Shown here: positions 11,005-30,669 of the stretch, one piece after another | Layout: the number at the start of each line of letters is the position of its first letter | How positions within the stretch are numbered: position 1 is the first letter of the stretch | From: Clostridia bacterium | GTDB taxonomy: Bacteria > Bacillota > Clostridia > UMGS1810 | Direction of reading: 5' to 3' | Assembly (NCBI GenBank): GCA_017397885.1 | Contig: JAFQHQ010000001.1 | Coordinates: forward strand, 1 to 55,952 | DNA length: 55,952 bases | Position numbers and translations under genes: made by a program | The notes under the pieces: model-generated | The model's input: only the letters and a program-made list of their open reading frames with translations | The model's database searches: none | What the model was told of the DNA's origin: nothing

Positions 11005-12228
11005 ATGAATAATTCAAAAGAAAAGCTGAGCCTTCGGTGGGCTTATATGGTACTTGGCGTGGTTGCAATGCTTTTTGTAGGTATTTTGTATGCGTGGTCA
11101 ATTTTAAAATCACCATTGTCTGCAGAGTTTGGATGGGGGACATCGGACCTTGCGCTTAACTTTACCATAGCTATGACGTTTTTCTGCATAGGCGGTTTGC
11201 TTGGTGCCAAAATTTCCGGACGTGCAGGACATAGGATTGCACTTTTGACATCGGGCATTCTTTCGGCGTCAGGATTTATTCTGACCTCTGTTTTGACCGG
11301 TGGATCTGTACTGCCGCTTTATGTTACATACGGAGTTCTTGCGGGTCTTGGCATAGGAATTGCATATAATGTTATTATTTCAACAGTCAGTGTGTTGTTT
11401 CCGGATAAAAAGGGTTTGTGCTCGGGATGTCTCATGATGGGATTTGGGGCATCTGCCTTGCTTCTTGGTAATGTTGCGGACAGTATGTTCAATAGTGAAC
11501 TTGGCTGGCGCAAAACATACATAATCCTCGGAATTTCAATTTTCGTAGTTGTTTCACTGGCAGGGTTCCTGCTCAAAAAGCCGGAAGCGGATGTAACATT
11601 TCCACAACCGAAAAAAACGGGAAAAACTTCCGCTGAAGAATTTAAACCCGTCGAATTAACATCGGTGCAAATGCTTTGTCGTTCTTCGTTTTGGCTGGCA
11701 TTTATCTGCATATCATTTCTTGCTGCAGTGGGAAGCTCGGTTATAAGCTTTGCCAAGGATTTGGCACTGTCGGTTAATGCTTCCGAAGCACTTGCCGTTT
11801 CTCTTGTAGGTATACTTTCGGTGTGCAACGGAATAGGGCGTATTCCCACGGGTGTAGTCTACGATGTTTGCGGACGTCGCAAAACAATGCTTTGTGCAAA
11901 CATTCTCACAATTTGTGCCGCCGCAGTTACACTCATTGCTGTGTCGGTTGGCTCTTTGCCTCTTTGCATTGCGGGGCTTTGCCTCACCGGTATGTCCTAT
12001 GGTTCATGCCCGACAATTATGACTGCGTTTACTTCTTCATTTTTTGGAATGAAGCATTTTTCAAACAATGTTGCAATTATGACCTTTACCGTAATGATTG
12101 GTTCTTTTATTGCCACCGCATCAAATAAGGTTTTGGAACTTACCGGCGGCTACACCGGTTCCTTTGTGATGCTTTTGTCGCTGACGGTTGTTGCCCTTGT
12201 TTTGAATGTGTTTATTCGCAGACCATAA
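11005..12228 (+). CDS. OFA-family MFS transporter (oxalate/formate antiporter-like)
   Basis: A 407-residue, 12-segment major-facilitator permease. The opening RWAYMVLGVVAMLFVGILYAWS and the SAEFGW loop are typical of the oxalate/formate antiporter (OFA) branch. Segments fall in two six-helix halves joined by a hydrophilic stretch near residues 195-225 (KKTGKTSAEEFKP); a conserved GxGRIPTG loop occurs near 280 and RRKTM after the eighth segment. The ATG at 11005 is chosen over the TTG at 11002 because AAGGAG (10992-10997) is seven bases upstream. Such carriers move small organic anions across the cytoplasmic membrane; the actual substrate is unknown. The gene is convergent with the AraC-type regulator, with two hairpins between them. 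Confidence 0.85.
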   Translation: MNNSKEKLSLRWAYMVLGVVAMLFVGILYAWSILKSPLSAEFGWGTSDLALNFTIAMTFFCIGGLLGAKISGRAGHRIALLTSGILSASGFILTSVLTGGSVLPLYVTYGVLAGLGIGIAYNVIISTVSVLFPDKKGLCSGCLMMGFGASALLLGNVADSMFNSELGWRKTYIILGISIFVVVSLAGFLLKKPEADVTFPQPKKTGKTSAEEFKPVELTSVQMLCRSSFWLAFICISFLAAVGSSVISFAKDLALSVNASEALAVSLVGILSVCNGIGRIPTGVVYDVCGRRKTMLCANILTICAAAVTLIAVSVGSLPLCIAGLCLTGMSYGSCPTIMTAFTSSFFGMKHFSNNVAIMTFTVMIGSFIATASNKVLELTGGYTGSFVMLLSLTVVALVLNVFIRRP

Positions 12229-12446: not shown

Positions 12447-13262
12447 TCATATGCTTTTGATGTTCTTTCTGAGAGTATGTCCGGTGGCTTGCTTATATTT
12501 CCTGCAAAGATGTGCCGCATCATAAAAACCGAGTATTTCGGCAATTTCATTCAGTGAGCAAGGGGAGGAGTTGACAAGCTGTTCTGCTTGAGTAAATCTG
12601 ATATGATTGCGATATTGACTTGGGGTTAGTCCTCCGGTATATGCCTTGAACTTTCTTGCAAATGACGATGTGCTCATGTAGCATTTTTTTGCAAGCATTT
12701 CGTTTGATATGGCTTGTTCGGGATGCTTGTTTATAAAGTTTATAGCAGGATAAATATCTTTATAAATTGATTCAAATATGGTGTCCGAATTAGTTCCGGC
12801 GAAAAGCTTGTCAATGAGAGAGAACATTTCAGCTTTGAGCTTTGCCATGTTGGTGGATTTGTTGAGAAAACAGTAGTGAATCATCTGAAAGCTTTTGAGA
12901 ATACTGTTGTCGGCATCTTTCATAACGATTATGGGGTTTTCGTCTATGATAACCTGCGTGCCGTCGTGAAGATGTATATCAAAACATATTCCAAATCCCG
13001 TGGAGGTTTCATTAACCGGAACTGAGGTGTAGTTTGAATTGTCCGGGGCAAAGAAAATATCATTTTTGTTTATTGTAAGAAATTCAACACCCTTTTTAAA
13101 AAATCTTCTTTTACCTTCGGTATTAAAATATAAAAGATTGTTTTTGCGTTTGGTATGTTCATAGTTGTATGTGCCAAGGTCTGCGGTTGTCTGTATGCCA
13201 ACGTTCACGATTTTCAATATGTAGTCAAGCGAACACAAATCACTGCAACTTATTTTGAACAT
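12447..13262 (-). CDS. AraC-family transcriptional regulator
   Basis: A 271-residue regulator. An N-terminal cupin-like sensing region (about residues 15-140) is followed by a C-terminal pair of helix-turn-helix motifs: SNEMLAKKCYMSTSSFARKF near 190-210 and LNEIAEILGFYDAAHLCRKY near 235-255, ending in GHTLRK. AAGGAAGTGAG precedes the ATG. Family members usually activate nearby catabolic or transport genes when a sugar binds the cupin. It is divergent from the Gfo/Idh/MocA-like gene at 13424 and convergent with the MFS gene, so control of the divergent gene is the simplest inference. The effector is not recognisable. Confidence 0.9.
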   Translation of the reverse strand: MFKISCSDLCSLDYILKIVNVGIQTTADLGTYNYEHTKRKNNLLYFNTEGKRRFFKKGVEFLTINKNDIFFAPDNSNYTSVPVNETSTGFGICFDIHLHDGTQVIIDENPIIVMKDADNSILKSFQMIHYCFLNKSTNMAKLKAEMFSLIDKLFAGTNSDTIFESIYKDIYPAINFINKHPEQAISNEMLAKKCYMSTSSFARKFKAYTGGLTPSQYRNHIRFTQAEQLVNSSPCSLNEIAEILGFYDAAHLCRKYKQATGHTLRKNIKSI

Positions 13263-13316: not shown

Positions 13317-13423
13317 GTATATTTTCCAAATTTGAATTCAGCATACAATTTTGACAAAATTTTGTATAATGACTTTTTTGATTAGATTTTATATAATAAT
13401 AACATAAGAAAGAGGTGTTTACT

Positions 13424-14281
13424 ATGAAAATAGGACTAATTGACAAATATCTTGACGAATGGCACGCAAACAATCTTCCCACTTGGCTCAGAGATGAAAC
13501 AGATGACATTGAGGAGATATATGCCTATGAAATGATGCCCTCACCCAATGATGGCGGAATATCAGGAGAGCAGTGGGCAAAAGAACACGGGGCAATTCTG
13601 TGCAATTCAATAGATGAAGTTATAGAAAAGAGTGACGTACTCATTGTTCTTGCACCAAACTACCCCGAAATCCATGAGGAATTATGCGATAAGCCGCTAA
13701 GAAGCGGAAAGCTCACATATGTTGACAAAACCTTTGCTCCGGATGTTGAAGCCGCAAAAAGACTTGTTGCAAAAGCTAAAGAGCACAACACTCCAATGTT
13801 TACAACAAGTGCACTTCGTTTTTCAACTCAACTCAAAGCTCTCAACAAAGAAAATGTTGCAACGGTATCGTCACGAGGTCCCGGTCCCTTTGAAATGTAT
13901 TGTATTCATCAGATAGAACCTTCTGTTGTGCTTATGGGCAATTCTCCCGAAGCTGTTATGTTTATCGGAACCGAAGAAAAGCCTGCCTATGTAATACGCT
14001 TTTCGGGTAACAAATTTGTAACCTGTCATCAGTTCGGCTGGGAAGGTAAATTTGATATTGCTGTGGGCTACAGCGACGGAAAGAAATCGGTTTACACGGG
14101 AGAATGTACCGACTTTTTTGAAAACTTTACAACAGAGCTTGTAAAATTTTTCAAAACTGGTGAACCTCCGGTTGATTATAAAGATACATTAGCAGTAATT
14201 GCTATCCGAGAAACTCTTCTCAAAGCTAAGGATACTCCCGGAGTGTGGCTTGAAACTCCTGACCTTAGCGACCAACGCTAA
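13424..14281 (+). CDS. Gfo/Idh/MocA-like oxidoreductase-related protein
   Basis: A 285-residue protein whose middle resembles the nucleotide-binding half of Gfo/Idh/MocA dehydrogenases: SIDEVIEKSDVLIVLAPN near 65-80, a loss of the usual EKP in favour of VDKTFAPDVEAAKRLVAKAKEH near 100-120, and a C-terminal alpha/beta region. The N-terminus (MKIGLIDKYLDEWHANNLP) lacks the Gly-rich GxGxxG loop, and the protein is shorter than the 330-380 residues usual for the family, so NAD(P) use and even catalysis are uncertain. The ATG at 13424 follows AGAGGTG. Its TAA overlaps the ATG of a 34-codon frame. It is divergent from the AraC gene and probably controlled by it. Confidence 0.7.
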   Translation: MKIGLIDKYLDEWHANNLPTWLRDETDDIEEIYAYEMMPSPNDGGISGEQWAKEHGAILCNSIDEVIEKSDVLIVLAPNYPEIHEELCDKPLRSGKLTYVDKTFAPDVEAAKRLVAKAKEHNTPMFTTSALRFSTQLKALNKENVATVSSRGPGPFEMYCIHQIEPSVVLMGNSPEAVMFIGTEEKPAYVIRFSGNKFVTCHQFGWEGKFDIAVGYSDGKKSVYTGECTDFFENFTTELVKFFKTGEPPVDYKDTLAVIAIRETLLKAKDTPGVWLETPDLSDQR

Positions 14282-14385
14282 TGACACTCTTTGAACATAA
14301 TTCCGAGCTTGCTGAAAAGAGAATCATGCTACTCAAAGAGAAACCTATTTCCAATTATTATAATACCGGACGAAAGACAAAATAA
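14281..14385 (+). CDS. Short ORF coupled to the Gfo/Idh-like gene
   Basis: A 34-residue frame (MTLFEHNSELAEKRIMLLKE start, basic end with GRKTK) begins at the ATG that overlaps the preceding TAA (TAATG), the usual sign of translational coupling. It has no membrane segment and no recognisable domain. It may be a real small protein or the remnant of a longer gene. It ends about 90 bases before the start of the surface-protein gene. Confidence 0.35.
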   Translation: MTLFEHNSELAEKRIMLLKEKPISNYYNTGRKTK

Positions 14386-14475
14386 AAATAAGTTTTTTGA
14401 TTTCCTTAAAACATCAAGAGTTACATAATAAAAAAGGATTCAAATATATTAAAATTTTGAAAGGTGGAAAATTTA

Positions 14476-17355
14476 ATGAAAATCAAGAAAATCTTTTCGC
14501 TGATATTGAGCCTTGCTCTCATCATCAGCACATTACCCGGTGCCATTTCGGCAAATGCCGAAGTGAGTGCCAACACTCCCGAAACAGTGTACCCCGGTCT
14601 CACACTTAACTTCGATTCTCTCGAAGAGGCAACCGGTTCTGCTACAAACACTGAAATTGCATCATCAATAATAACCCTTGGCGGAAAAACAGGTTCGGGA
14701 ACTAACCAATGGGTTATGGGCGTTAATAATGTAAACTCTGCAGGAAGTGGGAAATACTTTGCAGACATAGTAAAAAACGGCACCGAAGAAAATTCAACTC
14801 CGGCTCTGCTTTTTAGGATGAACACCGGTGGTTCCAATTCCGGCCCGCAGATTCGTTTTATGGTTGAAAAAACATGGTACCGTAATCAGGGACAGACTGT
14901 TGGTGCTGTTCATAGCATCGAAATGGATGTTACTCCTCTTTCGGGTGCCTACATCCGTCTTGTTGCCGCTGCACGAACAACAAGACAAGAGCAGATTCCC
15001 TGGATATATATTTTTAACAACGGAAAAATCGCCAATACACAAAGCAAGTATACAATCGGTCACACCTATCATGTTAAACTTACCTTTGACACAGCTGCTT
15101 TAAAATACTATTTGTGGCTCGACGATGTTCTTTATGAAGAAAATTCATACACGCCAACTGCCGCTTCTCTTAATCCCAATACCATTTCATTTATTGAATA
15201 TACAATGGTAGATCAGTTTACAGACATTTCTGCGGAAAATGAAGCAAAGCTTCTTATTGATAATTACAAATCTTACTACACTTATGATGCTCCTGCTGCG
15301 GTTTCAGTCGGTTATACCGATTCTGAAGGAACGGCTGTTGAAGCAGACAGTGTTAAATATAATGCACAGTGTGTAAATGTTACTTTAAGCAGAGCAATTT
15401 CCAACACTGCAGGCAACATTAAACTTCGCAGAACCGGTGGGGCAGACGTTAGTGCAACAGTTGCAGTTTCCGATGATGGGAAAAATCTTACGTTGTCTCC
15501 TGCAGATACATTTTTGCCCGGAGCTTCCTATGAAATAGTTTTAGATTCTGACATTACATATGATGTATTGCATGCAAGCAGCTCCGAATACAGCACAACA
15601 ACAGAAACCAGAGCTCTTGGAAATAGTCTTGCGATTCCTTTCACAACTCAATCGGAAGTAATGATTTTATCTCCCGAAAACGGTGAAGAGATTTCTTCTG
15701 ATGCTCAGAGTGTAACACTCACAGCCTCGGTTGAAGATGATGTAACTCTTGTTGAATTCTATGTTGATGAAGAACTTGTTGGAAGTGCAGTACCCACAGA
15801 GAATAATCTTGCATCCCTGAATGCGTCGATTAAAGATATGGCTGTCGGCACAAAAGAAGTAAAAGCAATTTGCTACGGTGAGGACGTGTCGGTTCTTTAT
15901 TCATCATTCCTGCTGAACCACAAGGCTGTCTACAACATTAACACTAACTTTTCGTCAGATTGCGAAAACAGCAGTGCACTTTTTAATTCCGCATATATAT
16001 ACATTGCCGGAGATGCTTCGGACAAATCAATTGTTCCTTCAACGGACATTGTTGCCAAAGGTGAGCAGGCGGCAAAATTTGTGTATAAAAAGCCCGAAGG
16101 CTCAGTCGGAACAAACGGCAAACGTTATGCTTATCTTTATCTGAATGGCGAGAAGGTATACGGTAATAACAGAATGTGTGACGGAACACAGGTTGTTGAC
16201 ACTTGGATATACATTCCCAACAAAACAGACAGATACACTTTCGGAATGATGTGGAAATTTGTTTTTGGTGATGAAGTTCCTTATTCGGATGCAGAATGTA
16301 CACAAGCCATGGCTGTTACTGCTTCGGATAAAAAGCTTCGTCTTGAAATTGGTCAGGAAAACATTTTCAACAAAGGTCAGCTGGGAGATACCGGTATCGG
16401 CTATGAACCCGGTTGGCATCATCTCAGAGTAGAACTCGACTACGAAAACAACACCAAAAAGACTTTTGTAGATTGTAACGAAATCTCAACGGTTGACCTC
16501 AAACCTTTGTACAATAGTGTATATTATATGAAAGATGCTACAGGTAATGTTATTTGTGAAGAAGGTACAAGCACACCAAAAGCATTTGAAATGATAGACA
16601 GACCTGCAGAAATGGCATACCTTGCCATCAATCATTACGATTGCCACTCTGCAACCGAAGCAGACACAGAATATCAGACAGCATTTATTCTTGATGATTT
16701 CAGCTACTACAAGGAATATGAAATTCCTGAGATTGCCGATGTTTCATATGCGGTTGCAGACGGTGAAAATATAGCGGTTAATGAAGAAAGCTACGCAATA
16801 GATGCCAAAGCAACCGAAATTTCTGTAACACTTGAAGGTAAATATGCCCCCGAAGCTGTAAATTCCGACAATGTTAAGCTCTATGTTGACGGAACCGACA
16901 CTGCATATGACTCTGTAGTTTATGAGGGAGATGTGGTAACAATCACAAAAGCAGACGGTTTCAAAGAAAATCAGAAGCTTGAAATTGTTTTCGGTAAAAA
17001 TATGACTCTTGGCTATGCATATTGCATGGGCACAGTTGCCGGAATGGAAAATGCAGTTAAGCTTTACACTGCAAAAGATGGCTTATACTTTGATTCTTCC
17101 GTAGTTTCAAAAGAAGGACTTGCTGTGGCTTATGTTGACATCCGCACAATCAAAGAAGTGGTATGTCAGGCTCTCCTCGGAACCTACAATGACAAAACAA
17201 TGATAGGCATCAAGCCCTTTGATGTAACTGCAAACGGCAAAGAATGTTTTGTAGTCAGCACTCACGCAGTAGGTGCAGATGAAGCAAAAATAATGGTTTG
17301 GAACAATTTGTCAGAACTCACACCTCTTGGAGAGTCTGCATCCGTTATCATTCAA
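14476..17355 (+). CDS. Secreted LamG-like/Ig-like multidomain surface protein
   Basis: A 960-residue exported protein. The ATG at 14476 follows AAGGTGG and begins a clear signal peptide (MKIKKIFSLILSLALIISTL, cleavage near ANA). Module order: a concanavalin/LamG-like jelly roll (about residues 30-265) ending in LLIDNYKSYY, an SbsA-type Ig-like domain with LSRAISNTAGNI and VLDSDITYD (about 270-395), a bacterial Ig-like domain (TASVEDDVTLVEFYVDEE, about 400-485), a second jelly-roll-like region (500-755), and a final Ig/copper-amine-oxidase-like stretch. No catalytic motif and no SLH domain are seen. The first 400 residues closely match those of the next protein. It probably binds or presents a glycan. 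It heads a four-gene surface locus. Confidence 0.8.
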
Positions 17356-17446
17356 TAAAAGATTTTGACTCAGATCGTTACAAATGTGGTCTGAGTCAAA
17401 TTGCCTAAACACACATATTCAGACACATAAGAAAGGAACAATAATC

Positions 17447-20224
17447 ATGAAAAAACTGTTATGTGCCTTAATAATTTTAACACTAATTTTCCCCGTTGGG
17501 GTTTTTGCTTCGGGAGAAGTGAGCACAAACACTCCCGAAACCGTATATCCGGGGATGGAACTTGACTTTGATTCTTTAGAGGAAGCAACAGGCACACAAA
17601 CCGACACATCAATTGTCTCTTCCATAATCACTCTTGCAGGTGACACGGGATCAAGCGCCAACAAATGGGTTATGGGCGTTAATAATGTAAACTCTGCAGG
17701 AAGCGGAAAATATTTTGCCGACATTGTCAAAAACGGTACCGAAGAAAATCCGACATCGGCACTGCTTTTAAGAATGAATACCGGCGGTTCAAATTCCGGT
17801 CCACAGCTCCGTTTTATGGTTGAGAAAACCTGGTACCGTAATCAGGGACAGACAGTTGGTGCCGTGCACACAATCGAAATGGATGTTACTCCGCTTTCGG
17901 GCACCTACATCCGCTTGATTGCCGCCGCACGAACAACAAGGCAGGAGGGCCTTCCATGGATATATATTTTCAACAACGGAAAAATCGCCAATACACAAAC
18001 CAAGTATGCACTCGGACACACCTACCATGTTAAGCTCACCTTTGACACAGCTGCCTTAAAATACTATTTGTGGCTCGACGATGTTCTTTATGAAGAAAAT
18101 TCATACACTCCAACTGATGCTTCTCTTAATCCCAATACCATTTCCTTTATTGAATTTACAATGGTAGATCAGTTTACAGACATTTCTGCAGAAAATGAAG
18201 CTAAGCTTCTTATTGATAATTACAAATCCTACTACAACTATGACGCTCCTTTGGTTACATCGGTTAGTTATATCGATAAAGAGGGAAATAGTTTTGAGTC
18301 CGATTCTGTTAAATATAATGCAGGCTCTGTTAATGTTACATTGTCAAGAGTAATTGGCAATGTTGAGGGAAATGTTACCCTCAAAAACGAAAACGGTGAT
18401 GAAATTCCCGTAGCATCGGAGCTTTCGGAGGATGGTAAAACAGTTAGTGTGATACCAGACGATGAACTTTCTCCAAATGAGAATTATGAGATTGTCTTAG
18501 GCTCTGATGTGACATATGATGTGTTGCATGCAAGCAGCTCTGAATACAGCACCATAACAGAAACAAGATATCTCGGAACAGAAATTGTTGCAAAGTTTAA
18601 AACACAATCCGAAAATATTATAGTCCTTCCGAAAAGCGGCGATCATATTGCCGCAAAAGATGGTAAAATAACATTTTCAGCAAACGTGAAAGAGGATGTA
18701 ACCTCTGTTGATTTTTATGTTGACGACTATTTGATGGGCAGTGCAGTTCCCGATGATAATCTGACTGCAATCCTCGAAGCCTCGGCAGATGAACTTGCAA
18801 TCGGTCAAAAAGAACTTAAAGCTGTTTTTCATGGCACAGAGGATATTGAGCTTAAAACGGATTTCTGGCTTTCAAATCCCGAAAAAGCAAACAAAATTGT
18901 TGAAAAGCTCGGAGAAGATATTTCAAAGGAGGAATTCATTTCTCTTATCACCTCCAACGAAATTCTTTTGGAAATAAATAACGAAGATCGATTCTACAAC
19001 GATAACAAAGAAGAGATCCTTACACTTTTGTATAACGGTGTCGATTCCTTTGACGATGTGGAGCATTTCGGGGAAGAGCTTGGCAGAGCATATGCTCTCA
19101 CAGCACTTTCAAAAACTACACCCGAAGATGTTCCTTCATGTCTCGAGGTTAATGCAGAAAATCTCGGCATAGATTACGGCGCTGACTATGAAAATGAAGA
19201 AAGACTCGATTCCGAAGCAAAACAGGTGCTTTGTACATATCTTTCTTCCAAAGATTTTACAGAAAACTTTTCTGATTTTAAATCTGCATATTCGGAGCTT
19301 GTAATTCTTTCGGCAATCTCAACTGTCGATGTATGGTCCGAAATTGAAATTATTCTTACCAAAGATTTTGAAAATGAATTTGAAGCTATGCTTGAGGATA
19401 ATTCCAACTATAAAAAGCTTCCTTCAAAACAAAAAGTATATCAGTATATGATGAACTATGACTATGATGAATACACAGACATTGAGGAAAACTTTGAAAA
19501 AGCCGCCAAAAAAGCTTACGATGAATACAAAGACAAAAAATCCTCAGGTTCTTCCGGCGGTGGGGGAGGAAGCAAAGGCTCTTCTTCGGTTGTAATCGAC
19601 CCTGCAATCATAACTCAGCCAAATGTTCAGACTCCCGCCCCGAATGATGTTCCTGCACTATTAAATCAAAATGCCGTTTCATCCTTTGCAGATGTTCCTT
19701 CATCTCACTGGAGCTACAAGGCGGTGTCTGCACTTTCAGATGCCGGAATCATAAACGGATATGACAACAACACTTTTATGCCGGACAGTCCCATTACAAG
19801 AGCGGAATTTGCAAAGCTTCTTTCTCTTTCGTTCAACTTTAATAACGGTACTGCGAAGTTTGTCGATGTTTCTGACGTAGACTGGTTTGCATCGTCTGTA
19901 AAGGCTGCGGCATCCAGAGGAATAATTCAAGGCTATGAAGGAAGCTTTATGCCGAGCCGGAGCATCACACGTCAGGATGCGGCGGTGATGATATACAGAA
20001 CATTTGCATATCTTGGAAAAACCTTAAACGGCAGAGCGGAATATGACGATGCTATGGATATTGCTCTTTATGCTCTTCCGGCAGTCGGTGCTTTGAAGGA
20101 TAATTCCGTTATGGTTGGAAACAGCGGTAAATTTAATCCTGAAGCATCAATTTCAAGGGCGGAGGCATCTCAGCTTTTGTATAATGCAATAAACTTTATG
20201 AATCAAAATAAGGAGGCGAACTGA
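17447..20224 (+). CDS. SLH-anchored surface protein, paralogue of the preceding gene
   Basis: A 925-residue exported protein with signal peptide MKKLLCALIILTLIFPVG, cleaved near VFA. The ATG at 17447 is preceded by GAAAGGAAC. Residues about 25-400 repeat the LamG-like plus Ig-like modules of the upstream protein; the jelly roll is almost identical. An Ig-like domain (FSANVKEDVTSVDFYVDDY) and a helical acidic region (about 490-690) follow. A Gly/Ser-rich linker near 700-715 leads into three SLH repeats (about 743-925; SFADVPSSHWSYKAVSAL, SITRQDAAVMIYRTF, SISRAEASQLLYNAI), which bind pyruvylated secondary cell-wall polymer. It is therefore tethered to the wall. The SLH anchor at the end of this copy, absent from its paralogue, is the main difference. 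Overlaps the next gene start (TGATG). Confidence 0.88.
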   Translation: MKKLLCALIILTLIFPVGVFASGEVSTNTPETVYPGMELDFDSLEEATGTQTDTSIVSSIITLAGDTGSSANKWVMGVNNVNSAGSGKYFADIVKNGTEENPTSALLLRMNTGGSNSGPQLRFMVEKTWYRNQGQTVGAVHTIEMDVTPLSGTYIRLIAAARTTRQEGLPWIYIFNNGKIANTQTKYALGHTYHVKLTFDTAALKYYLWLDDVLYEENSYTPTDASLNPNTISFIEFTMVDQFTDISAENEAKLLIDNYKSYYNYDAPLVTSVSYIDKEGNSFESDSVKYNAGSVNVTLSRVIGNVEGNVTLKNENGDEIPVASELSEDGKTVSVIPDDELSPNENYEIVLGSDVTYDVLHASSSEYSTITETRYLGTEIVAKFKTQSENIIVLPKSGDHIAAKDGKITFSANVKEDVTSVDFYVDDYLMGSAVPDDNLTAILEASADELAIGQKELKAVFHGTEDIELKTDFWLSNPEKANKIVEKLGEDISKEEFISLITSNEILLEINNEDRFYNDNKEEILTLLYNGVDSFDDVEHFGEELGRAYALTALSKTTPEDVPSCLEVNAENLGIDYGADYENEERLDSEAKQVLCTYLSSKDFTENFSDFKSAYSELVILSAISTVDVWSEIEIILTKDFENEFEAMLEDNSNYKKLPSKQKVYQYMMNYDYDEYTDIEENFEKAAKKAYDEYKDKKSSGSSGGGGGSKGSSSVVIDPAIITQPNVQTPAPNDVPALLNQNAVSSFADVPSSHWSYKAVSALSDAGIINGYDNNTFMPDSPITRAEFAKLLSLSFNFNNGTAKFVDVSDVDWFASSVKAAASRGIIQGYEGSFMPSRSITRQDAAVMIYRTFAYLGKTLNGRAEYDDAMDIALYALPAVGALKDNSVMVGNSGKFNPEASISRAEASQLLYNAINFMNQNKEAN

Positions 20225-22926
20225 TGAAAATTAAAGCTTTAATTCTTGCATTTGTTTTAATCTTCGGATGTACTTGTGCATACGCTCAGGAAACACCCGT
20301 TGCAAAGAGCGAAGTTGCAGTTTCACCGGGCAATATTTTAGATCAGCTTGGAATTACAGACGGAATAAATTTTTCGGATGCTCAAAATAACATCACAAGA
20401 GCACAGTTTGCCTCAATGATTGTTAAAGCAATGAATGTGAGCAAAACATCCTATTCAACGGTTAATTATTTTTCGGATGTAAAATCGGGTGATGATTTTG
20501 CCGATGAAATTGCAACACTTTGCTATCTTGGTATTGCAGGAGGCACAGGTGAGGGAAGGTTTTCGCCCAATGACGGTGTTACTCTTGGTGCAGCCTATAA
20601 AATGATTACCACAGCTCTTGGCTACAACGAATGGGCGCTTGCATACGGCGGGTGGCCCACGGGTTATGTGCGTATGGCGGGCGAGCTTGATCTTGACAAT
20701 CTTACAAACAAGTCAACTGACGCATTCATTACCCTGTCAGATGCATGTGCTCTTATTGAAGAAATGCTGAAAACAAATCCTGCAGATGTTGGCTCTGTTT
20801 CCAAGGATGGCGTTGAATTTGTCAAGGCAGAGGAAACTCTCCTTGAACGTAGCCACAATCTTCATGCAATTGAGGGCGTGTGCGTGACCGCCGGTTCAGT
20901 TTCTGTGGATTCCGGTTTTGAATATGACAAAACAAAAACCATCACCTTGGACTATGCTCACACGTTTAAAACCAATGTCGAATATGTTGAAGAATTTCTT
21001 GGATATGAAGTTTTAGTGTGGTATGACAAAGATACCGATGTTGTTAAATGCATTGAAGCCACAGACAACAACACAACTGTTGAGCTTGATGCCGACGTTC
21101 TTTCGGGAATGACTGATTATTCTGTGTTAACATCAAATGAACAAACGGGAAAAGAAACAAAATACAATCTCGACAGAGGTTATTCATATGTTAAAAACGG
21201 CAGACTTTCCATTCCCGAAAAGGATGCATTTGACTTTGATAACGGAAAGCTTGTGCTCATTGACAACAACGGTGACAAAAAATATGATTTTGTCATTGCT
21301 CACAGAGCGGAATATTTTGTAGTCAGCTCTTTTTCCGAGTACGACCGCACAATATATGACAAAAATCTCGGTAATGTTCCCATTGTTTTTGAATCAAACG
21401 GAGACAATTATTGTGATATAACTGTTTTTGACAATGATGGAAATCCGATTTCCGAAACCGCTATGACAAGCATAAAGCAAAATATGATTCTCACGGTTTT
21501 CCGAAGTTCGGACGGAAAATATGTTAATGCCGATGCTTGCACTTCAACCGTTAAAGGAAGCATCAGCGAAATAGGTAAGGACTTTATTGTGATAAACGGA
21601 AATTCCTACAAAAAGAATTACTATTATGACCGCTATTACGGTGATATAGGTCTTGGTTATAACGGCGTGTTTCTCCTTGCACCCGACGGCACTGTTACGG
21701 CAGTTGATTCAACAGGTTACGGTGCAATGCAATATGGCTATTATCTTGACTTCAAGGTAGGTCCCGGATTGTCAACCACTGCAACAATAAAGCTTCTTTC
21801 AACATCATCCGAGATTTGTATCTATAATCTCGCATCAAAGATAAAGCTGAATGGTGTGAGTGTGGCAGCTACCGATTCATCACTTTTTGACGTGCTTTAT
21901 GTAAATGGCTATCCCAACTATCAGGCAATAAGATATTCGCTGAATGCTGACGGTCTTGTTAATGCCGTTGATACAGGCAAAAATATCGACGAAAGTGCAG
22001 ATGCGGTTCAAAAATACAGCGGAACTGTATATTCGGATGACAGCCTCACAAGATATGTTGACAAAACAGAAATTCACTATAAAATTACCGGACTTGCATA
22101 TCCCTATTTCAAATTCGGTTCCGGAGTTGTTTTTAAAGTTCCCAAGAATTTGACGGGCACTGTTACCGGCAGATATGATGACAATCTGTTTTCTGTGATG
22201 TCTTACACCGAGTTAAAAGATGATGATAAGCTTACAGTTGATGCCTATGATTACAACGAAAACTTCGAACCGGGAGTAGTTGTAGCCTACATAGGTCTTG
22301 GTACCGGCGGCAGGGTTTCTGCGGCAACTCCGCCAATGAATGCCACTGCATATGTGGTGGATTCGGTTGTTGATGCCATAGATTCTGATGGTGAAATAAC
22401 AAAAAAAGTTACATTGTATGATAACGGCAAATTCTTGTCCTACTACATCGATGAGAGAATTATTCCTACTCTTGAGGATGATAATCTTATTCCTGCCTCG
22501 GGTGATATTGTAAGAATAGTTTTGTCCGACGTGGATACTATTGGCGGAATAGCAAGAGATGTAATATACAATCCCGATACAAAAAAATCAAAAGTTCAGT
22601 ATGGCGGAGATGTTTCTGCAAATCCGGGATATATGAATACATATATAACCGGTAAGGTGTTTTCTGTATCTTCTTCAATGCTTACCGTAAAATATGAAGA
22701 CATAGGAACCGATTCGTCAAAATATTCACCGACAAAAGACGGCATATCTCCATATGCAATGACTTCGGTTCCTGTCATTGCAATTTATAATACCGATAAA
22801 GGTATTGTTGAACACGGAAGCTTTAATGACATACTCAGCATTCAGGCATCAGATGAAGCTGCGGCAAGCTATATTGCTCTTAAAACTTATTATCTGAGTC
22901 CGAGACTTTTGGTAATCTATAAATAA
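20224..22926 (+). CDS. S-layer-homology surface protein
   Basis: A 900-residue exported protein with signal peptide (MKIKALILAFVLIFGCTCA, cleavage near AYA). Two SLH repeats lie near residues 35-165 (NNITRAQFASMIVKAM; LCYLGIAGGTGEGRFSPNDG), so it is wall-anchored at its N-terminus. The remainder (about 200-900) is a long beta-rich region without a recognised catalytic motif, rich in Asp, Tyr and Val, with repeated short beta segments such as VKGSISEIGKDFIVINGNSY. S-layer and surface proteins of Clostridia often have this layout. AAGGAGG precedes its ATG, which overlaps the previous stop. Its role may be structural or in substrate capture for the downstream lyase. No close family is named. Confidence 0.85.
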   Translation: MKIKALILAFVLIFGCTCAYAQETPVAKSEVAVSPGNILDQLGITDGINFSDAQNNITRAQFASMIVKAMNVSKTSYSTVNYFSDVKSGDDFADEIATLCYLGIAGGTGEGRFSPNDGVTLGAAYKMITTALGYNEWALAYGGWPTGYVRMAGELDLDNLTNKSTDAFITLSDACALIEEMLKTNPADVGSVSKDGVEFVKAEETLLERSHNLHAIEGVCVTAGSVSVDSGFEYDKTKTITLDYAHTFKTNVEYVEEFLGYEVLVWYDKDTDVVKCIEATDNNTTVELDADVLSGMTDYSVLTSNEQTGKETKYNLDRGYSYVKNGRLSIPEKDAFDFDNGKLVLIDNNGDKKYDFVIAHRAEYFVVSSFSEYDRTIYDKNLGNVPIVFESNGDNYCDITVFDNDGNPISETAMTSIKQNMILTVFRSSDGKYVNADACTSTVKGSISEIGKDFIVINGNSYKKNYYYDRYYGDIGLGYNGVFLLAPDGTVTAVDSTGYGAMQYGYYLDFKVGPGLSTTATIKLLSTSSEICIYNLASKIKLNGVSVAATDSSLFDVLYVNGYPNYQAIRYSLNADGLVNAVDTGKNIDESADAVQKYSGTVYSDDSLTRYVDKTEIHYKITGLAYPYFKFGSGVVFKVPKNLTGTVTGRYDDNLFSVMSYTELKDDDKLTVDAYDYNENFEPGVVVAYIGLGTGGRVSAATPPMNATAYVVDSVVDAIDSDGEITKKVTLYDNGKFLSYYIDERIIPTLEDDNLIPASGDIVRIVLSDVDTIGGIARDVIYNPDTKKSKVQYGGDVSANPGYMNTYITGKVFSVSSSMLTVKYEDIGTDSSKYSPTKDGISPYAMTSVPVIAIYNTDKGIVEHGSFNDILSIQASDEAAASYIALKTYYLSPRLLVIYK

Positions 22927-22941
22927 CAGGAGGGAAGAACA

Positions 22942-25900
22942 ATGAAAAATAAAATAATTTCTGTAATTCTTTCTCTCGTTATGATTATCGGTTGCATGTC
23001 TTCTGTGGCAAATGCCGAAAATCAATACATGCTAAACGAAGATTTTGAAAGCTATTCAGACGGCGGTGCTCCGTCGGCATCCTTTAGCGTCAGCGCTCCC
23101 GGGGGGTATGCTGTCAAAGAAACAGAAACAGGCTCCAAGGTTCTTATCGCAAGAAGTACTCTTTCTTCTGCAAGCATTTCGGCACTTTTTCCCGAAACAG
23201 CTATGGAAACCGTGTTTTCGGCACAGGTGTTAATCGGGTCAGATATGACAAGCGGCTCCCTTTTCACCCTTGCAGATTCTTCCGGTCAGAGCTTTGACAT
23301 TATGAGGCTTTCCGATAAGGGCGCACTTACTCTTGCAGACGGAAAACGTCTCGGCAGCTTCAGATCGGGAGAATGGAAAAAGATTGCTGTTGCGGTAAAC
23401 TTTTTCGAAAAACGAATGGATGTATACATAAACGGTAACGCTGTTCTTTCTTCGTGGAGATTCAATTCTTTGCTTACCTCCGCATCACAGCTTAAATTTG
23501 AACTTGATGCTCCCGGTGGTGAGAAGGTATCAAATCTTGTTGTTGACAACGTAAAGGTGTATTACGGTGATAAACCCGAAAAAGCCGATCTTCAAAAAAG
23601 ATATCTTCCTTTGGCTCTTTGCACCGATTGCATATCCAAGGACATTGCCAAAGATGACACGAACTCATCTTCTTCCGATGCAAAGGGAACTGCCTATTTC
23701 TATCAGGATTTTACGGCAAAAAATATAGAAATGATTACAGCCAAAGAAAACATTCTTGAAATAGCAAGGATGCCTGAGGGCGATGAGCATCTTCATGCAA
23801 TGCATTTCAAACGTCTTGATAATTCAAATGATTTCCATTCGGATTTCAGCCTGTCCAATCAGAAGCTTTGGCAGGAGTCAAAATATATTATAGAATTTGA
23901 AACATATATTGTTAAAAATGAAGGGGAATTTGGGCTGTCAATCCGAAATGCCGATTCCACAAGAAGCACACTTGTATCTGTAGAGGGAAACAATATCAAA
24001 GTCAATTCATCAAAGCTTGCAACCATCGATTACGGAACATGGGCAAAAATTATTGTTGCCACAGATGTTACCAGTCAGACCTGCACCGTCTGGGTAAACG
24101 GTGAAAAGGCATGTACAAATCTGCCTGTCGGCAACACACGTACCACACCACGTTCCATGAGATTTCATGTGTATGCCGGCTCTGACACGGAAATGTATGT
24201 TGATAACGTACGTGTATATTCAGGCAATATACCTTTTGAAGTCGAATTATATGAGGGCGAAAACGGAATAGCCACATTGATGGAACCCAACAGCGTGGCG
24301 GAAAATTACATTGACGATGCCGCAGTTTTCATGACCGAATGTGATTCACTGTATTTTGGCGGCAAAAAATATAAGTACTCGGATCTGGGTGAAAATGTTG
24401 TTATTGATAACGATGAATTTATGATATCAGAAATGCTGTTTGAAAAAGTATTTCCCGGCACTTCAAAAAAGATAAGCGCCCACACAAGGAATATATCGGA
24501 TATAAATTATGTGGCGGTTGAAAAGGTATGCAAAGATGTACTTGGCTACAGTGTATATTCAGATGAACGTGGTTTTGTAATGGTTGATACCAACAGTCTC
24601 ATAACCTATACCAACTCCAATGATACTGCTCTTGAGCCGATTGATGAGGTATATCGCTATATCCAGTTTGACAGGGAAAGCGGAAAAGAGCTTCTTTCGC
24701 AGGTCGAGTCATATGTTGGTGCAAAAGGTCATCCGAGAATTCTCACCAATCAGACACAGCTTGCAAAGGTAAAGGCAAACGCCAACTCCGATGCTCTTGT
24801 TTCCAAATGGCTCAGAGATGTGCTTGATACGGCTAATGCATATGTTAATTCGCCAATTGTTGAATATAAATTTGAGGGGGGAACTCTTCTCAATGCGGCA
24901 AGAGCGGCGCAAGTGTCAATTGTAAACACATCCACTGCCTATCTTTTGACGGGTGACACAAAGTATGCCGAACGTGCATGGCTTGAGATGGAAAATGTTC
25001 TTTCGTGGCAAAACTGGAATCAGGGAGGTCACCACCTCGATTGCTCCGAGCTTTTGCACGGGGTTGCAATCGGCTATGATAATCTCTATTCATATCTGAC
25101 CGATGAGCAGAAGAAATTTGTTGTGGATAAAACCTATGAGCTTGTCCTTGAAGGATGCGTTATTCACTATTCACAGGAGATTCCCAAGCATGGCTGGCGA
25201 AAGAGTGTCGAAAACTGGGCAGTTGTGTGTTCGGGGTCTCTCATTGCAGCTTGTATAGCCTTTGGAACTGAGGGCTACTCTGAATATCAGGAGGAATTTG
25301 AATTTCTTTTGTCATCGGCAATGCGTACAATGGAATATCCGCTCATGTCATTCTTCCCCGATGGCGGTTGGTATGAAGGCTCAACCTATTGGAACTATAC
25401 CGTGAAGTTTCTTACTCAATCGGTTCTGGCTCCGCTGTATTACTCAACAGGCTCGGTGCATCAAATGTTAGATCCCAAAGGCGTAAGCACCACCCTTGAA
25501 TATATTCTTTATATGCAAGCAGGCAAGGGGGTTTCCTACAACTATTTTGATTCCCATGCAAGTCACCTGTCTACACAAGACGGATTTTTGATACCGACAA
25601 TTCTTGGTGATGAAGACTTGACAAATCTCTGGCTCAAAAACTGTCTTGACGGTTCAAAAACAGGAACAGTAACCGGACTTTTGTGGTATACACCGACTAA
25701 GAGTGATACATCATTTAACCTTCCTAATGATAAATTTTTTGAAAGCACAGGTACGGGACATATGATAGGCGAGTGGGGTAACACCGACAATTCATTTGCG
25801 GCATTCCGTTCGGGTCGAAATGATGTCACTCATGCTCACCTCGACAACGGTTCATTCATCTTTGATGCTCTTGGTGAAAGATGGGCTATGGATCTTGGAC

Positions 25901-27225
25901 CCGATGACTATAACATTCCCGGCGGCTATCACAACATTGATACCGGCTATCAGCTATACCGTAAGAGACCCGAAGGGCATAATACCGTGGTTATTAACTT
26001 CCGTGAGGATATTGCTTTTGAATATTACGGCGGCCAGGGTGTTTATTGCGAAAGTAATCTCATGGCTTCGGAAAGTAAGCCCAGAGGGGCATATATGGCA
26101 ATTGACCTCAGTGACATCTACAAACACGACACAAAAAGCTACCTCAGAGGCTACTATTTGGGTGACAACCGAACCAGTCTCATAGTTCAGGATGAAATCG
26201 AGCTTCTTGAAAACGGAAGTGACATCAATTGGTTTATGCACACCGAAGCGGATGTGAAAATTGCCGAAGACGGCAAGAATGCATCTCTTACAATTGGTTC
26301 AAAAGAGGTTAGGGTTGAGGCTGTTTGCAACGCAGATTCATGGTATTTTACCACAACCGAACCAAAGCCTCACGAAACTGCTCCGGTAAGACCGGGACAA
26401 CTTGAAGGAAACTATACAAATGCAGGAATAACACGACTTACACTCAAAGCCACCGGCTCCGGAAAGGTTAACATCACAGTTAAGCTCACTCCGGTTAAAA
26501 ACAGTAATTCGTCTCCTGTAGAATTTGTTCCCATATCTCAATGGACAATTCCCGATGGTGAAATTCCGGAAGCAATCACTCTTACGGGAATAAGTGCCTA
26601 TGGTGAAGTTATCGATGGCTTTGAACCCACGAAATATAACTACACCATAGATATTCCCTACGGTGAGGATGATCCTGTTATCACCGCAACCTCTGATGAG
26701 GGTACGGTTAGGGTAGAACAGTCTTCGGGTGATTTTGAACCTGCAAGGGTTTATCTTGCCGACGGTCAGGGCAATGAATATATCTACACCGTAAGCATCA
26801 ATCCTGTTTCAAGACACATTGGTATCATGGATGGTATGAAGGTTGTATACGGAACTGCATCTGCAAGTCACATACCTCAAAGTGAAAATCCACCCGAACA
26901 CATTGTTGACGGTAATTTGGAAACACGATGGGCGGCTCAGGGATCGGGACCGTGGTGTCAGACGGATCTTGGTAAAGTCACCGACATCGAAGGTGTTGCT
27001 CTTGCAATTTATGACGGTGAAAACAGAATTGCAAACTTTGAACTCTATATTTCCGAAGACGGGGAAAAATGGCAGAAGATATATGACGGAACTTCATCCG
27101 GAAAGACAAACGGATATGAGTCATATCTCATAAACGCCAAAGCACGCTACATCCGTTTTGTCGGATTCCAGAGCAATGTCGGCTCGTGGAATAGTGTACT
27201 TGAGCTTGGAGCTCTTGTTAAATAA
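22942..27225 (+). CDS. Heparinase II/III-like polysaccharide lyase, multidomain, secreted
   Basis: A 1427-residue exported enzyme, signal peptide MKNKIISVILSLVMIIGCMS, cleavage near ANA. Module order: LamG-like jelly rolls at about 30-210 and 245-435; a connector; an alpha-helical toroid (about 590-880) with NWNQGGHHLDCSELLHGVAI, KSVENWAVVCSGS and FFPDGGWYEGSTYWNY; a heparinase II/III beta-sandwich (about 950-1190) with DVTHAHLDNGSFIFDALGE; a cadherin-like beta domain (about 1215-1290); and an F5/8 type C (CBM32-like) domain (1300-1427) with ENPPEHIVDGNLETRW. The helical-plus-sandwich core is that of PL8/12/15/17/21-type lyases that cleave uronic-acid polymers by beta-elimination. The HxH and Tyr-rich motifs are the probable active site. 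AGGAGG precedes the ATG. It carries no SLH domain, so retention may rely on partner proteins. Followed by a strong terminator. Confidence 0.88.
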   Translation: MKNKIISVILSLVMIIGCMSSVANAENQYMLNEDFESYSDGGAPSASFSVSAPGGYAVKETETGSKVLIARSTLSSASISALFPETAMETVFSAQVLIGSDMTSGSLFTLADSSGQSFDIMRLSDKGALTLADGKRLGSFRSGEWKKIAVAVNFFEKRMDVYINGNAVLSSWRFNSLLTSASQLKFELDAPGGEKVSNLVVDNVKVYYGDKPEKADLQKRYLPLALCTDCISKDIAKDDTNSSSSDAKGTAYFYQDFTAKNIEMITAKENILEIARMPEGDEHLHAMHFKRLDNSNDFHSDFSLSNQKLWQESKYIIEFETYIVKNEGEFGLSIRNADSTRSTLVSVEGNNIKVNSSKLATIDYGTWAKIIVATDVTSQTCTVWVNGEKACTNLPVGNTRTTPRSMRFHVYAGSDTEMYVDNVRVYSGNIPFEVELYEGENGIATLMEPNSVAENYIDDAAVFMTECDSLYFGGKKYKYSDLGENVVIDNDEFMISEMLFEKVFPGTSKKISAHTRNISDINYVAVEKVCKDVLGYSVYSDERGFVMVDTNSLITYTNSNDTALEPIDEVYRYIQFDRESGKELLSQVESYVGAKGHPRILTNQTQLAKVKANANSDALVSKWLRDVLDTANAYVNSPIVEYKFEGGTLLNAARAAQVSIVNTSTAYLLTGDTKYAERAWLEMENVLSWQNWNQGGHHLDCSELLHGVAIGYDNLYSYLTDEQKKFVVDKTYELVLEGCVIHYSQEIPKHGWRKSVENWAVVCSGSLIAACIAFGTEGYSEYQEEFEFLLSSAMRTMEYPLMSFFPDGGWYEGSTYWNYTVKFLTQSVLAPLYYSTGSVHQMLDPKGVSTTLEYILYMQAGKGVSYNYFDSHASHLSTQDGFLIPTILGDEDLTNLWLKNCLDGSKTGTVTGLLWYTPTKSDTSFNLPNDKFFESTGTGHMIGEWGNTDNSFAAFRSGRNDVTHAHLDNGSFIFDALGERWAMDLGPDDYNIPGGYHNIDTGYQLYRKRPEGHNTVVINFREDIAFEYYGGQGVYCESNLMASESKPRGAYMAIDLSDIYKHDTKSYLRGYYLGDNRTSLIVQDEIELLENGSDINWFMHTEADVKIAEDGKNASLTIGSKEVRVEAVCNADSWYFTTTEPKPHETAPVRPGQLEGNYTNAGITRLTLKATGSGKVNITVKLTPVKNSNSSPVEFVPISQWTIPDGEIPEAITLTGISAYGEVIDGFEPTKYNYTIDIPYGEDDPVITATSDEGTVRVEQSSGDFEPARVYLADGQGNEYIYTVSINPVSRHIGIMDGMKVVYGTASASHIPQSENPPEHIVDGNLETRWAAQGSGPWCQTDLGKVTDIEGVALAIYDGENRIANFELYISEDGEKWQKIYDGTSSGKTNGYESYLINAKARYIRFVGFQSNVGSWNSVLELGALVK

Positions 27226-27247
27226 TGCAATATCGAATAAAATAATC

Positions 27248-27299
27248 AAAATCACCCCATATCCAAGCATGTAAAGCTTAGATATGGGGTGATTTTTGT
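27248..27299. terminator. Strong terminator after the surface-lyase operon
   Basis: A 16-bp perfect stem, AAAATCACCCCATATC at 27248-27263 with GATATGGGGTGATTTT at 27281-27296, followed by T and G. It closes the surface-protein operon. Confidence 0.9.
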
Positions 27300-27342
27300 A
27301 TTGGTATTTTCATAAGTTTAATAATAAACCTGTACATTTTTC

Positions 27343-27408: not shown

Positions 27409-27747
27409 ATGAAACTGAAAAAAGTTGTAGAATTACTCGATGCCAACATCTTAAACGACTGCTACTCACAAGATACCGAGGTGCTTTCTGCTTGCGGCTG
27501 TGACCTTATGAGTGATGTTCTTGCCTTTGTAAAAGATCAGGCACTTCTCCTTACGGGTCTTGTTAATCCCCAGGTTGTCCGCACTGCCGAAATGATGGAT
27601 ATGAAAGCCATTGTTTTTGTCAGAGGAAAGACTCCAGGTGAAGAAATAATCGACCTTGCAAATGAGGCGGGTATTGCCGTTTTGTCAACGCAGCATCCTC
27701 TCTATCATTCCTGCGGTGTGCTGTACAGCGAAGGTCTTTACAAATAA
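27409..27747 (+). CDS. DRTGG-domain protein
   Basis: A 112-residue soluble protein consisting of one DRTGG-type domain (CGCDLMSDVLAFVKDQALLLTGL, then GIAVLSTQHPLYHSCGVLY), a small alpha/beta module otherwise seen next to CBS domains and in phosphotransacetylase. It has no catalytic motif; it likely binds a nucleotide or a partner. It starts at an ATG after CGGAGGC. A second, diverged copy lies at 29503 in the same cluster. Single-domain DRTGG proteins of this kind are characteristic neighbours of HydS-like genes and bifurcating hydrogenases in Clostridia and Thermotogae. A regulatory role is therefore inferred. Confidence 0.8.
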   Translation: MKLKKVVELLDANILNDCYSQDTEVLSACGCDLMSDVLAFVKDQALLLTGLVNPQVVRTAEMMDMKAIVFVRGKTPGEEIIDLANEAGIAVLSTQHPLYHSCGVLYSEGLYK

Positions 27748-27762
27748 TTCGGAGGTGGTGCT

Positions 27763-28191
27763 ATGAATTCGTTTAAAGTTCAATATACCATCGACGGTGA
27801 AGATTTTTCTGTTGCCGGTGAAGCATCAAGAAAATTAAAAAAGGTGCTTCAAAGTCTTGGAGTTGACCCCCAGATTATCCGTAAGGCTACCGTTGCTATG
27901 TATGAAGGCGAAATCAATATGGTAATTCATGCCGACGGCGGTGTTATTGATGCGGAAATTACTCCCGAAAAAATTCATCTTTTCCTGCGTGACAAAGGTC
28001 CCGGAATCCCCGATATCGCTCTTGCAATGACCGAAGGCTTCTCCACTGCTTCGGATAATGTGCGTGAGCTTGGTTTTGGTGCCGGAATGGGTCTTCCCAA
28101 TATGGAAAAGTATACAGATTATATGAATATAACAACCGAAATAGGAGTAGGGACTACCATTGAAATGATAGTAAACACTTCTCTTTCTTGA
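27763..28191 (+). CDS. RsbT/RsbW-like ATP-binding protein (GHKL)
   Basis: A 142-residue single-domain GHKL ATPase of the anti-sigma/serine-kinase type. The helix QIIRKATVAMYEGEINMVIH carries the N-box acidic/Asn residues, FLRDKGPGIPD the G1 box and GFGAGMGLPNMEKY the G2 box, ordered as in RsbT and SpoIIAB. No sensor or dimerization domain is attached, so it depends on partners. It begins at an ATG after CGGAGGTGG, 15 bases after the DRTGG stop, and is 22 bases before the HydS-like gene. It may phosphorylate a Ser/Thr in a partner protein or act as a switch. Which partner is not evident; an anti-sigma role is only one option. Confidence 0.85.
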   Translation: MNSFKVQYTIDGEDFSVAGEASRKLKKVLQSLGVDPQIIRKATVAMYEGEINMVIHADGGVIDAEITPEKIHLFLRDKGPGIPDIALAMTEGFSTASDNVRELGFGAGMGLPNMEKYTDYMNITTEIGVGTTIEMIVNTSLS

Positions 28192-28213
28192 TTAAAATTC
28201 GGAGTTGATATAA

Positions 28214-29491
28214 ATGGATAAGATAATACATTCCGTAACCCTTGACACAGACAAGTGTAAGGGTTGCACCAATTGTATCAAAATGTGTCCCACTCAGGCA
28301 ATTCGCGTACGCAAAAACAAGGCAAAAATTATTAAAGAGCTTTGCATTGATTGCGGCGAGTGCATCAGAGTGTGTCCTTATCATGCAAAAAAGGCTGTCA
28401 CCGACAGCTTCGATATGATTAATAACTATAAATATAAAATCGCTCTTCCGGCTCCTGCATTCTACGGTCAGTTTGACAAAGCGACCAAAATCGAATCCAT
28501 ACTTCATGCCCTCATCAAAGCCGGGTTTGACGATGTTTTTGAGGTTGCATATGCGGCACAGCTTATTACAAAAAGAACAAAAGAGCTAATTGCAAGCGGT
28601 GAGCTTGAAACACCGATTATAAATTCTGCCTGCCCGGCGGTGGTAAATCTTATTTCCACCAAATATCCAAGCCTTTTGAATAATGTGATACCGCTTATTT
28701 CCCCAATGAATCTTGCGGCAATTATGGCAAGGAAAATAGCCGAAGAAAAAACTCCCTACAAGGGCAGTGAAATAGGCATCTTTTTCATCACTCCCTGTGC
28801 GGCAAAAGCTACCTGCACAAAGTTCCCTCTCGGTCTTCCCGAAAGCGTTATTGACGGGGCTTTTTCATTTAAGGATATGTACCTTAAGGTTGTGCCTCAT
28901 CTCAATGACAAAGAGTGTGAACAAGATCTTTCAAAAGCGGGATTCAAGGGCGTTTGCTGGGCAAATTGCGGCGGAGAGGTTGTGTCTCTCGAGCTTGACA
29001 ACTACATAGCCGTTGACGGCATACATAATGTAATTCATGTTCTTGAAGAAATAGAAAACGACAAGCTTTCCGATGTGGAATATGTTGAGGCACTTGCCTG
29101 CACCGGCGGATGCGTTGGCGGTCCTTTGGCTGTTGAAAACAATTTTGTTGCTCAGACCAGAGTCAAAAAAATGGCAAAAACAGCTCGCGGAAACGGTGAA
29201 GCTCCCGAATTCGACATGGATCTTGTGTGGCAGACACCAATAAAAATCCGCAAACAACGCAATCTCGACGATGATATGTTTGTTGCTATGGAAAAGCTTG
29301 CAAAAATAGATGAAATATATGACCGTCTTCCAAAGCTTGACTGCGGTTCGTGCGGTTCGCCAAGCTGCAGAGCTTTGGCAGAGGATATTGTACGGGGCTA
29401 TTCCAAGGAGTCCGACTGTATAATTAAATTCAAAGAAAAAATTGCTCTCTTTGCCAATGAGATGCTCGACGGCAGTGATAACGTAGAATAG
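28214..29491 (+). CDS. HydS-like putative sensory [FeFe] hydrogenase
   Basis: A 425-residue iron-sulfur protein. Residues 12-60 hold two CxxCxxCxxxC [4Fe-4S] motifs (CKGCTNCIKMCP, CIDCGECIRVCP). The following domain is the [FeFe]-hydrogenase large-subunit fold with altered H-cluster loops: L1 reads NSACPAVV (canonical TSCCPxW), L2 TPCAAK (canonical MPCxxK), L3 ACTGGCVGGP. All four H-cluster Cys ligands survive, but the proton-relay Cys is Ala, as reported for the putative sensor TmHydS of Thermotoga maritima. A C-terminal CGSCGSPSCRALAEDI binds another [4Fe-4S] cluster (near 375-390). It starts at an ATG after GGAG. Sitting between two DRTGG proteins and an RsbT-like ATPase, just upstream of hydCBA, it likely senses H2 or redox state. 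It might also be inactive. Confidence 0.85.
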   Translation: MDKIIHSVTLDTDKCKGCTNCIKMCPTQAIRVRKNKAKIIKELCIDCGECIRVCPYHAKKAVTDSFDMINNYKYKIALPAPAFYGQFDKATKIESILHALIKAGFDDVFEVAYAAQLITKRTKELIASGELETPIINSACPAVVNLISTKYPSLLNNVIPLISPMNLAAIMARKIAEEKTPYKGSEIGIFFITPCAAKATCTKFPLGLPESVIDGAFSFKDMYLKVVPHLNDKECEQDLSKAGFKGVCWANCGGEVVSLELDNYIAVDGIHNVIHVLEEIENDKLSDVEYVEALACTGGCVGGPLAVENNFVAQTRVKKMAKTARGNGEAPEFDMDLVWQTPIKIRKQRNLDDDMFVAMEKLAKIDEIYDRLPKLDCGSCGSPSCRALAEDIVRGYSKESDCIIKFKEKIALFANEMLDGSDNVE

Positions 29492-29502
29492 GAGTGACAA
29501 TC

Positions 29503-30533: not shown

Positions 30534-30562
30534 TTGTGCACATAAACGATTTTTTGATTTAA

Positions 30563-30580: not shown

Positions 30581-30597
30581 TCTTTTAAAAAGTATGT

Positions 30598-30603: not shown

Positions 30604-30669
30604 GCTAAAGTTGAATTAGTTTTATAATTTAATATTAATTATATTATTACTACAAGGAGGTCTTTTAAG

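Follow-up and report, generated by a model that had tools for sequence, protein, structure and literature searches.

The stretch of DNA considered here (the window: 55,952 nucleotides of contig JAFQHQ010000001.1, from an uncultured gut member of the Clostridia) carries four neighbouring genes, P1 to P4, the last of which encodes a lyase of the heparinase II/III superfamily. We propose, with moderate confidence, that these genes specify a wall-held unit for cutting a uronic-acid polymer, in which the lyase is mounted upon a more general ‘docking’ pair formed by P2 and P3. An earlier note on this DNA, made from its letters alone, had described a candidate wall-tethered lyase system: the unit itself stands, on the evidence of a conserved block, a gene order kept in a congener, a CsaB-like gene, the lack of an Omp85 match in 16 genomes and the catalytic residues of P4; what that account lacked is that P2 and P3 are not specific to this lyase, but form a general pair that recurs some 30 times in this genome.

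The source is a 3.06-Mb metagenome-assembled genome, 77% complete, from which 59 stretches (the window and 58 fetched loci) were searched; the sister species used for comparison is a goat-caecum metagenome-assembled genome with 96% protein identity to it, and both assemblies are less than 80% complete.

A repeated pair of predicted surface proteins

P2 (17447–20224, plus strand) has the make-up of an anchor protein. Behind an N-terminal module shared with P1, which includes a Big_5 domain, lies a segment that we term the pre-SLH domain (PSD; 18878–19543, ~222 residues); AlphaFold2 predicts this to be all-helical, with pLDDT scores mostly of 84–96, and a Foldseek search with the model found no match in the PDB. 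A disordered Gly/Ser linker then joins the PSD to a C-terminal SLH triplet (19685–20200; three copies of PF00395, E 1e-36; Foldseek to 3pyw, E 1e-7) of the kind found in Sap/SpaA-type trimers. In P3 (20224–22926, plus strand), whose start lies inside the P2 stop codon, Pfam reports a single SLH match (E 2e-8), yet profile matches and the model together give a full N-terminal SLH trimer (20332–20769; Foldseek probability 1.00 to the SpaA-SLH structures 7sv4 and 6cwc), followed by a long beta body of ~700 residues (20782–22923; mean pLDDT of the model 78). This body has no PDB match by sequence, no meaningful fold match and no NCBIfam family; fold matches of P3 to DDB1 were meaningless (TM 0.09), and internal repeats were dropped as a candidate feature at a best hhalign probability of 39%. 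The earlier note had correctly counted two SLH-anchored proteins. From these domains we infer that both P2 and P3 are attached to the cell wall; the genome also has one PS_pyruv_trans gene (E 3e-44) for a CsaB-like pyruvyl-transferase, the kind of enzyme that SLH anchoring requires, the evidence here being genetic only.

A P3 profile recovered 36 full members from the fetched own-genome loci, with scores well apart from those of SLH-only proteins, or 38 P3 genes if two partial copies are counted. Thirty of the 35 that could be evaluated directly follow a triple-SLH gene, at spacings that run from an overlap of at most 17 bp to a gap of at most 28 bp. Twenty-three anchors whose downstream context is readable contain a PSD, defined here by the ~250 residues of P2 that precede its SLH triplet, and P3 is the next gene in every one of them (23/23), as against 7/29 of the SLH proteins that lack a PSD (Fisher, 8e-9); with the PSD training members removed, the comparison becomes 15/15 versus 7/29 (p 1.5e-6). 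Distances between PSD regions also correlate with those between P3 bodies (30 own-genome pairs; rho 0.51, p 3e-4; 0.45 with the SLH signal removed) and, since all 30 pairs come from one genome, species history is not the cause. The genome-wide pairing and the co-varying sequences lead us to infer that P2 and P3 form a matched surface pair. No title or abstract in the open-access literature searched describes such a pair, which agrees with the earlier remark that these proteins had not been described as a unit, bearing in mind that absence from that literature is not proof of novelty.

The pair is linked to lyases in several ways. Of the 42 heparinase-superfamily matches, 29 have a P3 gene no more than 12 kb away. 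Conversely, such a match is found near 20 of the 38 P3 genes, compared to 23% of the genome (p 1e-4). Three open reading frames (1842–2105 residues) unite Ig and carbohydrate-binding modules, three SLH domains, a DUF4962 lyase and an F5/8C module in one chain that is followed by P3; a fourth shares this layout, without a detected lyase match, and is also followed by P3. The pair is also present in family members for which a search with P4 found no or few similar lyases. There its neighbours are GH39- or GH5-like enzymes and, frequently, the permeases and binding proteins of CUT1 ABC systems; that the pair often adjoins an ABC importer in relatives is a point missing from the earlier account. 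Because different enzymes accompany this pair elsewhere in the genome, we lean towards seeing P2–P3 as a surface unit of general use, for docking or capture, with the lyase as its ‘cargo’ at this locus.

Across the class, the P3 family is found in 74 of 196 sampled genomes (E <=1e-30), and 20 such loci show two arrangements: in one, P3 has no SLH gene immediately before it; in the other, which occurs in several other families, SLH and P3 genes form a tight pair. The partnerless genes (L104–L114 and L094) are spread over many Clostridia, and may represent an ancestral surface protein.

The lyase and its conserved block

The four open reading frames lie on the same strand, with likely starts for P1 and P2 at 14476 and 17447, and each opens with a single N-terminal hydrophobic segment of signal-peptide type, bearing out the earlier description of four consecutive exported proteins. 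P1 and P2 are 88 bp apart, P2 and P3 overlap by 1 bp, and 15 bp separate P3 from P4; this spacing suggests that all four are co-transcribed. The strong terminator previously claimed for their shared end was likewise found, as a terminator-like hairpin (27249–27295) 3' of P4, the surrounding segment (27226–27310) folding at −31.9 kcal/mol (z −6.5).

Comparison of the window with the sister locus by blastn delimits a conserved block (14287–27225, plus strand) of 94.8% nucleotide identity over 12953 columns. Homology ceases on either side of this block, where the flanking genes are different: the sister has creatininase, GH20 and other genes, the window an AraC gene and a Gfo/Idh oxidoreductase. 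A congener (G003) retains the order P1-like, P2, P3, P4 at 36–44% identity, with a GH88/105 enzyme and an ABC binding protein preceding its P1-like gene. By sequence comparison, P1–P4 is a real unit, and its conservation between different flanks, along with the order kept in the congener, gives good support to a wall-tethered lyase unit.

P1 (14476–17358, plus strand) is an exported protein without SLH domains, whose N-terminal ~480 residues are paralogous to those of P2 (68% identical) and carry Big_5 and Big_7 Ig-like domains. The Ig-like part of the earlier claim, that two of the proteins bear LamG/Ig-like modules, holds for P1 and P2; the LamG part does not, there being no Pfam match in either protein and an hhalign probability below 6%, and it is P4 that has two LamG-like modules.

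P4 (22942–27225, plus strand; 1427 residues) is predicted to be an exported, PL35-like lyase of the heparinase II/III superfamily. The two LamG-like modules stand in tandem (23020–24246; PF13385 above cut-off in two stretches, mutual hhalign probability 99%) before the lyase core (24697–26547; 8khv, E 4e-44), and an F5/8C, CBM32-like module follows (26860–27207; PF00754, E 6e-20) that resembles the CBM32 of AlyQ (7d29). Both the heparinase II/III-like assignment (DUF4962 and Hepar_II_III_C) and the F5/8C domain of the earlier description are upheld, whereas the cadherin-like domain falls below its cut-off (16.6 versus 24.2 bits). The core aligns over ~600 residues with solved PL35 lyases (phmmer: 8khv, 4.3e-44; 9o3q, 9.9e-43; 8khw, 7.4e-41), a sequence relationship that extends across the catalytic domain. 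In GAGase II, Tyr246 and His401 serve as general acid/base, with Asn192 as neutraliser (PMC12088678); Asn758 (25213–25215), Tyr816 (25387–25389) and His964 (25831–25833) of P4 align with Asn192, Tyr246 and His401, respectively. It is nonetheless possible, given its distance from the characterised PL35 enzymes, that P4 belongs instead to a neighbouring family of the superfamily.

The genome as a whole has about 42 heparinase-superfamily matches and 18 GH88/105 matches, the latter proteins having no signal-like segment. Sulfatase matches, as counted in this incomplete genome with a single Pfam family, number at most three, with one being clear; because they are so few, an unsulfated uronate polymer is the favoured candidate substrate for P4, and the heparin, chondroitin sulfate and ulvan targets suggested earlier become less likely.

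A proposed model and its rivals

We suggest that P2 would bind the pyruvylated secondary cell-wall polymer through its three SLH domains, such that the PSD and binding modules face outward; P3 would also bind the wall and project its large beta body, and at the cell surface the two would work as partners matched to each other. The exported P4 would then dock on P2–P3, for which the fused anchor–lyase genes elsewhere provide indirect evidence, and would cut a uronic-acid polymer by beta-elimination; Asn758, Tyr816 and His964 are observed, the activity itself is predicted. P1, an anchorless protein with the N-terminal half of P2, probably contributes further binding modules. A transporter encoded outside the block would import the unsaturated fragments, and cytoplasmic GH88/105 enzymes, whose genes also lie elsewhere, would split them. 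More tentatively, we entertain the possibility that P2–P3 is the functional equivalent of SusCD in Gram-positive bacteria, a widespread two-protein unit for glycan capture that is built on the PSD and the P3 beta body and has been duplicated and substrate-specialised across the Clostridia. In most lineages it would hand fragments over to ABC importers; in this genus it would work with few CUT1-type binding proteins.

Several points tell against the docking model. The proposed contact between P2 and P3 is drawn from gene order and co-variation; five of the 35 evaluable P3-family genes are not immediately preceded by an SLH partner, and relatives commonly have single-copy P3 forms, so that P3 can act alone. 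Co-variation between P3 and P4 is modest (rho 0.38, p 0.004) and that between P2 and P4 is not significant (p 0.07), and at some loci the lyase lies several genes away or on the opposite strand. P4 has Glu757 where GAGase II has Asn191 and the alginate-active GAGase III has His188, and for this reason its substrate is not readable from sequence. Uptake of the P4 products is also unexplained. Pfam scans of the window proteins found neither an ABC transporter nor a SusCD pair beside P1–P4, as the earlier note had said, and there is no CUT1 permease in the 59 own-genome stretches. SBP_bac_1 (CUT1-type binding), the one binding-protein family searched genome-wide, is represented by one protein here and none in the sister, whereas a family member without a P4-like lyase has 11; this low count contrasts with some 40 lyase and 18 GH88/105 matches, which suggest heavy oligosaccharide import. 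MFS_2 was set aside as a genus-wide uptake route, with a single match here and no match in the sister; Omp85 gave no match in 16 genomes and there is, apparently, no outer membrane.

Part of this evidence would suit a structural role, in which P2 and P3 are S-layer building blocks, P3 being a much-duplicated bulk array protein, the lyases share the operon for co-export only, and substrate capture is no part of what the pair does. The S-layer anatomy of P3 (an SLH trimer with a beta body), its single-copy occurrence without an upstream SLH partner both across the class and here (C42, C155), and its presence in so many class genomes are in keeping with that idea, which we nevertheless consider rather unlikely: 36 diverged copies, mostly one-to-one with PSD anchors, are unlike one abundant lattice protein, and both the anchor–lyase fusions followed by P3 and the recurrence of carbohydrate-active enzymes and ABC sugar importers as neighbours speak against it. 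P3 itself may still have an S-layer role.

It is doubtful that this is an ordinary Gram-positive polysaccharide locus, with the SLH proteins as passive tethers or carriers of carbohydrate-binding modules and P3 as an accessory. Firmicutes do have SLH-tethered carbohydrate-active enzymes, and an AraC regulator and a major-facilitator gene lie nearby, but such a reading leaves unexplained the exact pairing of PSD to P3, their co-variation and the two domains without PDB matches. We give very little credence to the notion that the lyases trim a uronate-containing capsule or wall polymer, the cell's own or a neighbour's, rather than food; the scarcity of sulfatase matches, the single CUT1-type binding protein and a conserved block without a transporter would all fit, whereas the abundance of heparinase-superfamily and GH88/105 matches, the latter without signal-like segments, points to catabolism of imported fragments.

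Set against known systems, the docking model combines familiar and unfamiliar elements. P4 has in common with the PL35 lyases (GAGases; 8KHV, 8KHW, 9O3Q; DUF4962 and Hepar_II_III_C) its core alignment and catalytic Asn/Tyr/His, and differs in its LamG-like and CBM32-like modules, the Glu at the Asn191/His188 position and its SLH-protein carriers. A Gram-positive polysaccharide utilisation locus (gpPUL) is defined by polysaccharide-degrading enzyme(s), a transport system and a transcription regulator, and a two-protein SLH pair is not part of it (PMC9067506); here there is a degrading enzyme in P4, downstream GH88/105 enzymes in the genome and an AraC gene nearby, but the block conserved in the sister stops short of the AraC gene and holds no transport system, and a repeated two-protein SLH pair is added. 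The likeness to SusC/SusD of Bacteroidota goes no further than the logic (two surface-protein genes side by side, present per genome in many diverged copies with different carbohydrate-active enzymes as neighbours), as P2–P3 have no TonB-dependent transporter or SusD Pfam matches and, being wall-bound as predicted, neither can be a transporter. The SLH trimers match those of S-layer proteins such as Sap and SpaA by fold and sequence, and a CsaB-like gene is present, yet known S-layer systems have one or two abundant proteins, whereas the pairs here are diverged, number in the dozens and have PSD and beta-body domains that are new. SLH-tethered enzyme display also recalls cellulosome scaffoldins with SLH domains, for instance those of Pseudobacteroides cellulosolvens, although Pfam reported no cohesin or dockerin among the proteins scanned.

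Much less is understood of how Gram-positive gut bacteria hold enzymes and glycans at their surface than of how Bacteroidota do so. Firmicutes are without SusC homologs, and no glycosaminoglycan gpPUL of a gut Firmicute has been characterised (PMC9067506); high SLH transcription is reported from a gut Oscillospiraceae pangenome (PMC12871809). The signature of a PSD–SLH anchor followed by P3 finds such loci by gene order in many Clostridia, even where the enzymes have no Pfam match, and in the PSD and P3 beta body it offers two domains without PDB matches; the apparent near-absence of CUT1 binding proteins from a genome with about 40 lyases poses a concrete question about uptake.

Duplication, flanks and neighbouring genes

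P1 and P2 are a tandem duplication (14560–15809 and 17516–18762), with 85% DNA identity over 740 bp, compared to about 75% over a longer stretch seen across species, a difference that makes partial gene conversion between them possible. Residues 887–955 of P1 (about 17122–17328) form a ~70-residue module with an ‘FLWD...PL’ motif at its end; among the proteins encoded at the fetched own-genome loci, about 45 have a module of this type, mostly at the C-terminus and seldom together with SLH, and it possibly serves as another sorting or docking module.

Upstream of the block, Pfam identifies a major-facilitator gene (11002–12228), the nearest transporter, then an AraC-family regulator (12447–13262, minus strand), which from its position possibly controls the P1–P4 locus and is divergent from a Gfo/Idh/MocA-like oxidoreductase gene (13415–14281, plus strand). 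The latter is missing from the sister's flank; a 67%-identical copy lies directly upstream of another P2–P3–lyase locus (L024), for which reason the oxidoreductase may belong functionally to the locus. A creatininase-like gene with a near-identical N-terminus lies upstream of different SLH–P3 loci in two genomes (L042, 15194–16036; L087, 12851–13690), with GH20 near it in L042. Directly 3' of the hairpin is an Fe-hydrogenase cluster with DRTGG, HATPase and PHP genes (27409–35671), and at 6536–9556 the window encodes a defence-like SF1 helicase of 1006 residues with a C-terminal MTES_1575 endonuclease domain.

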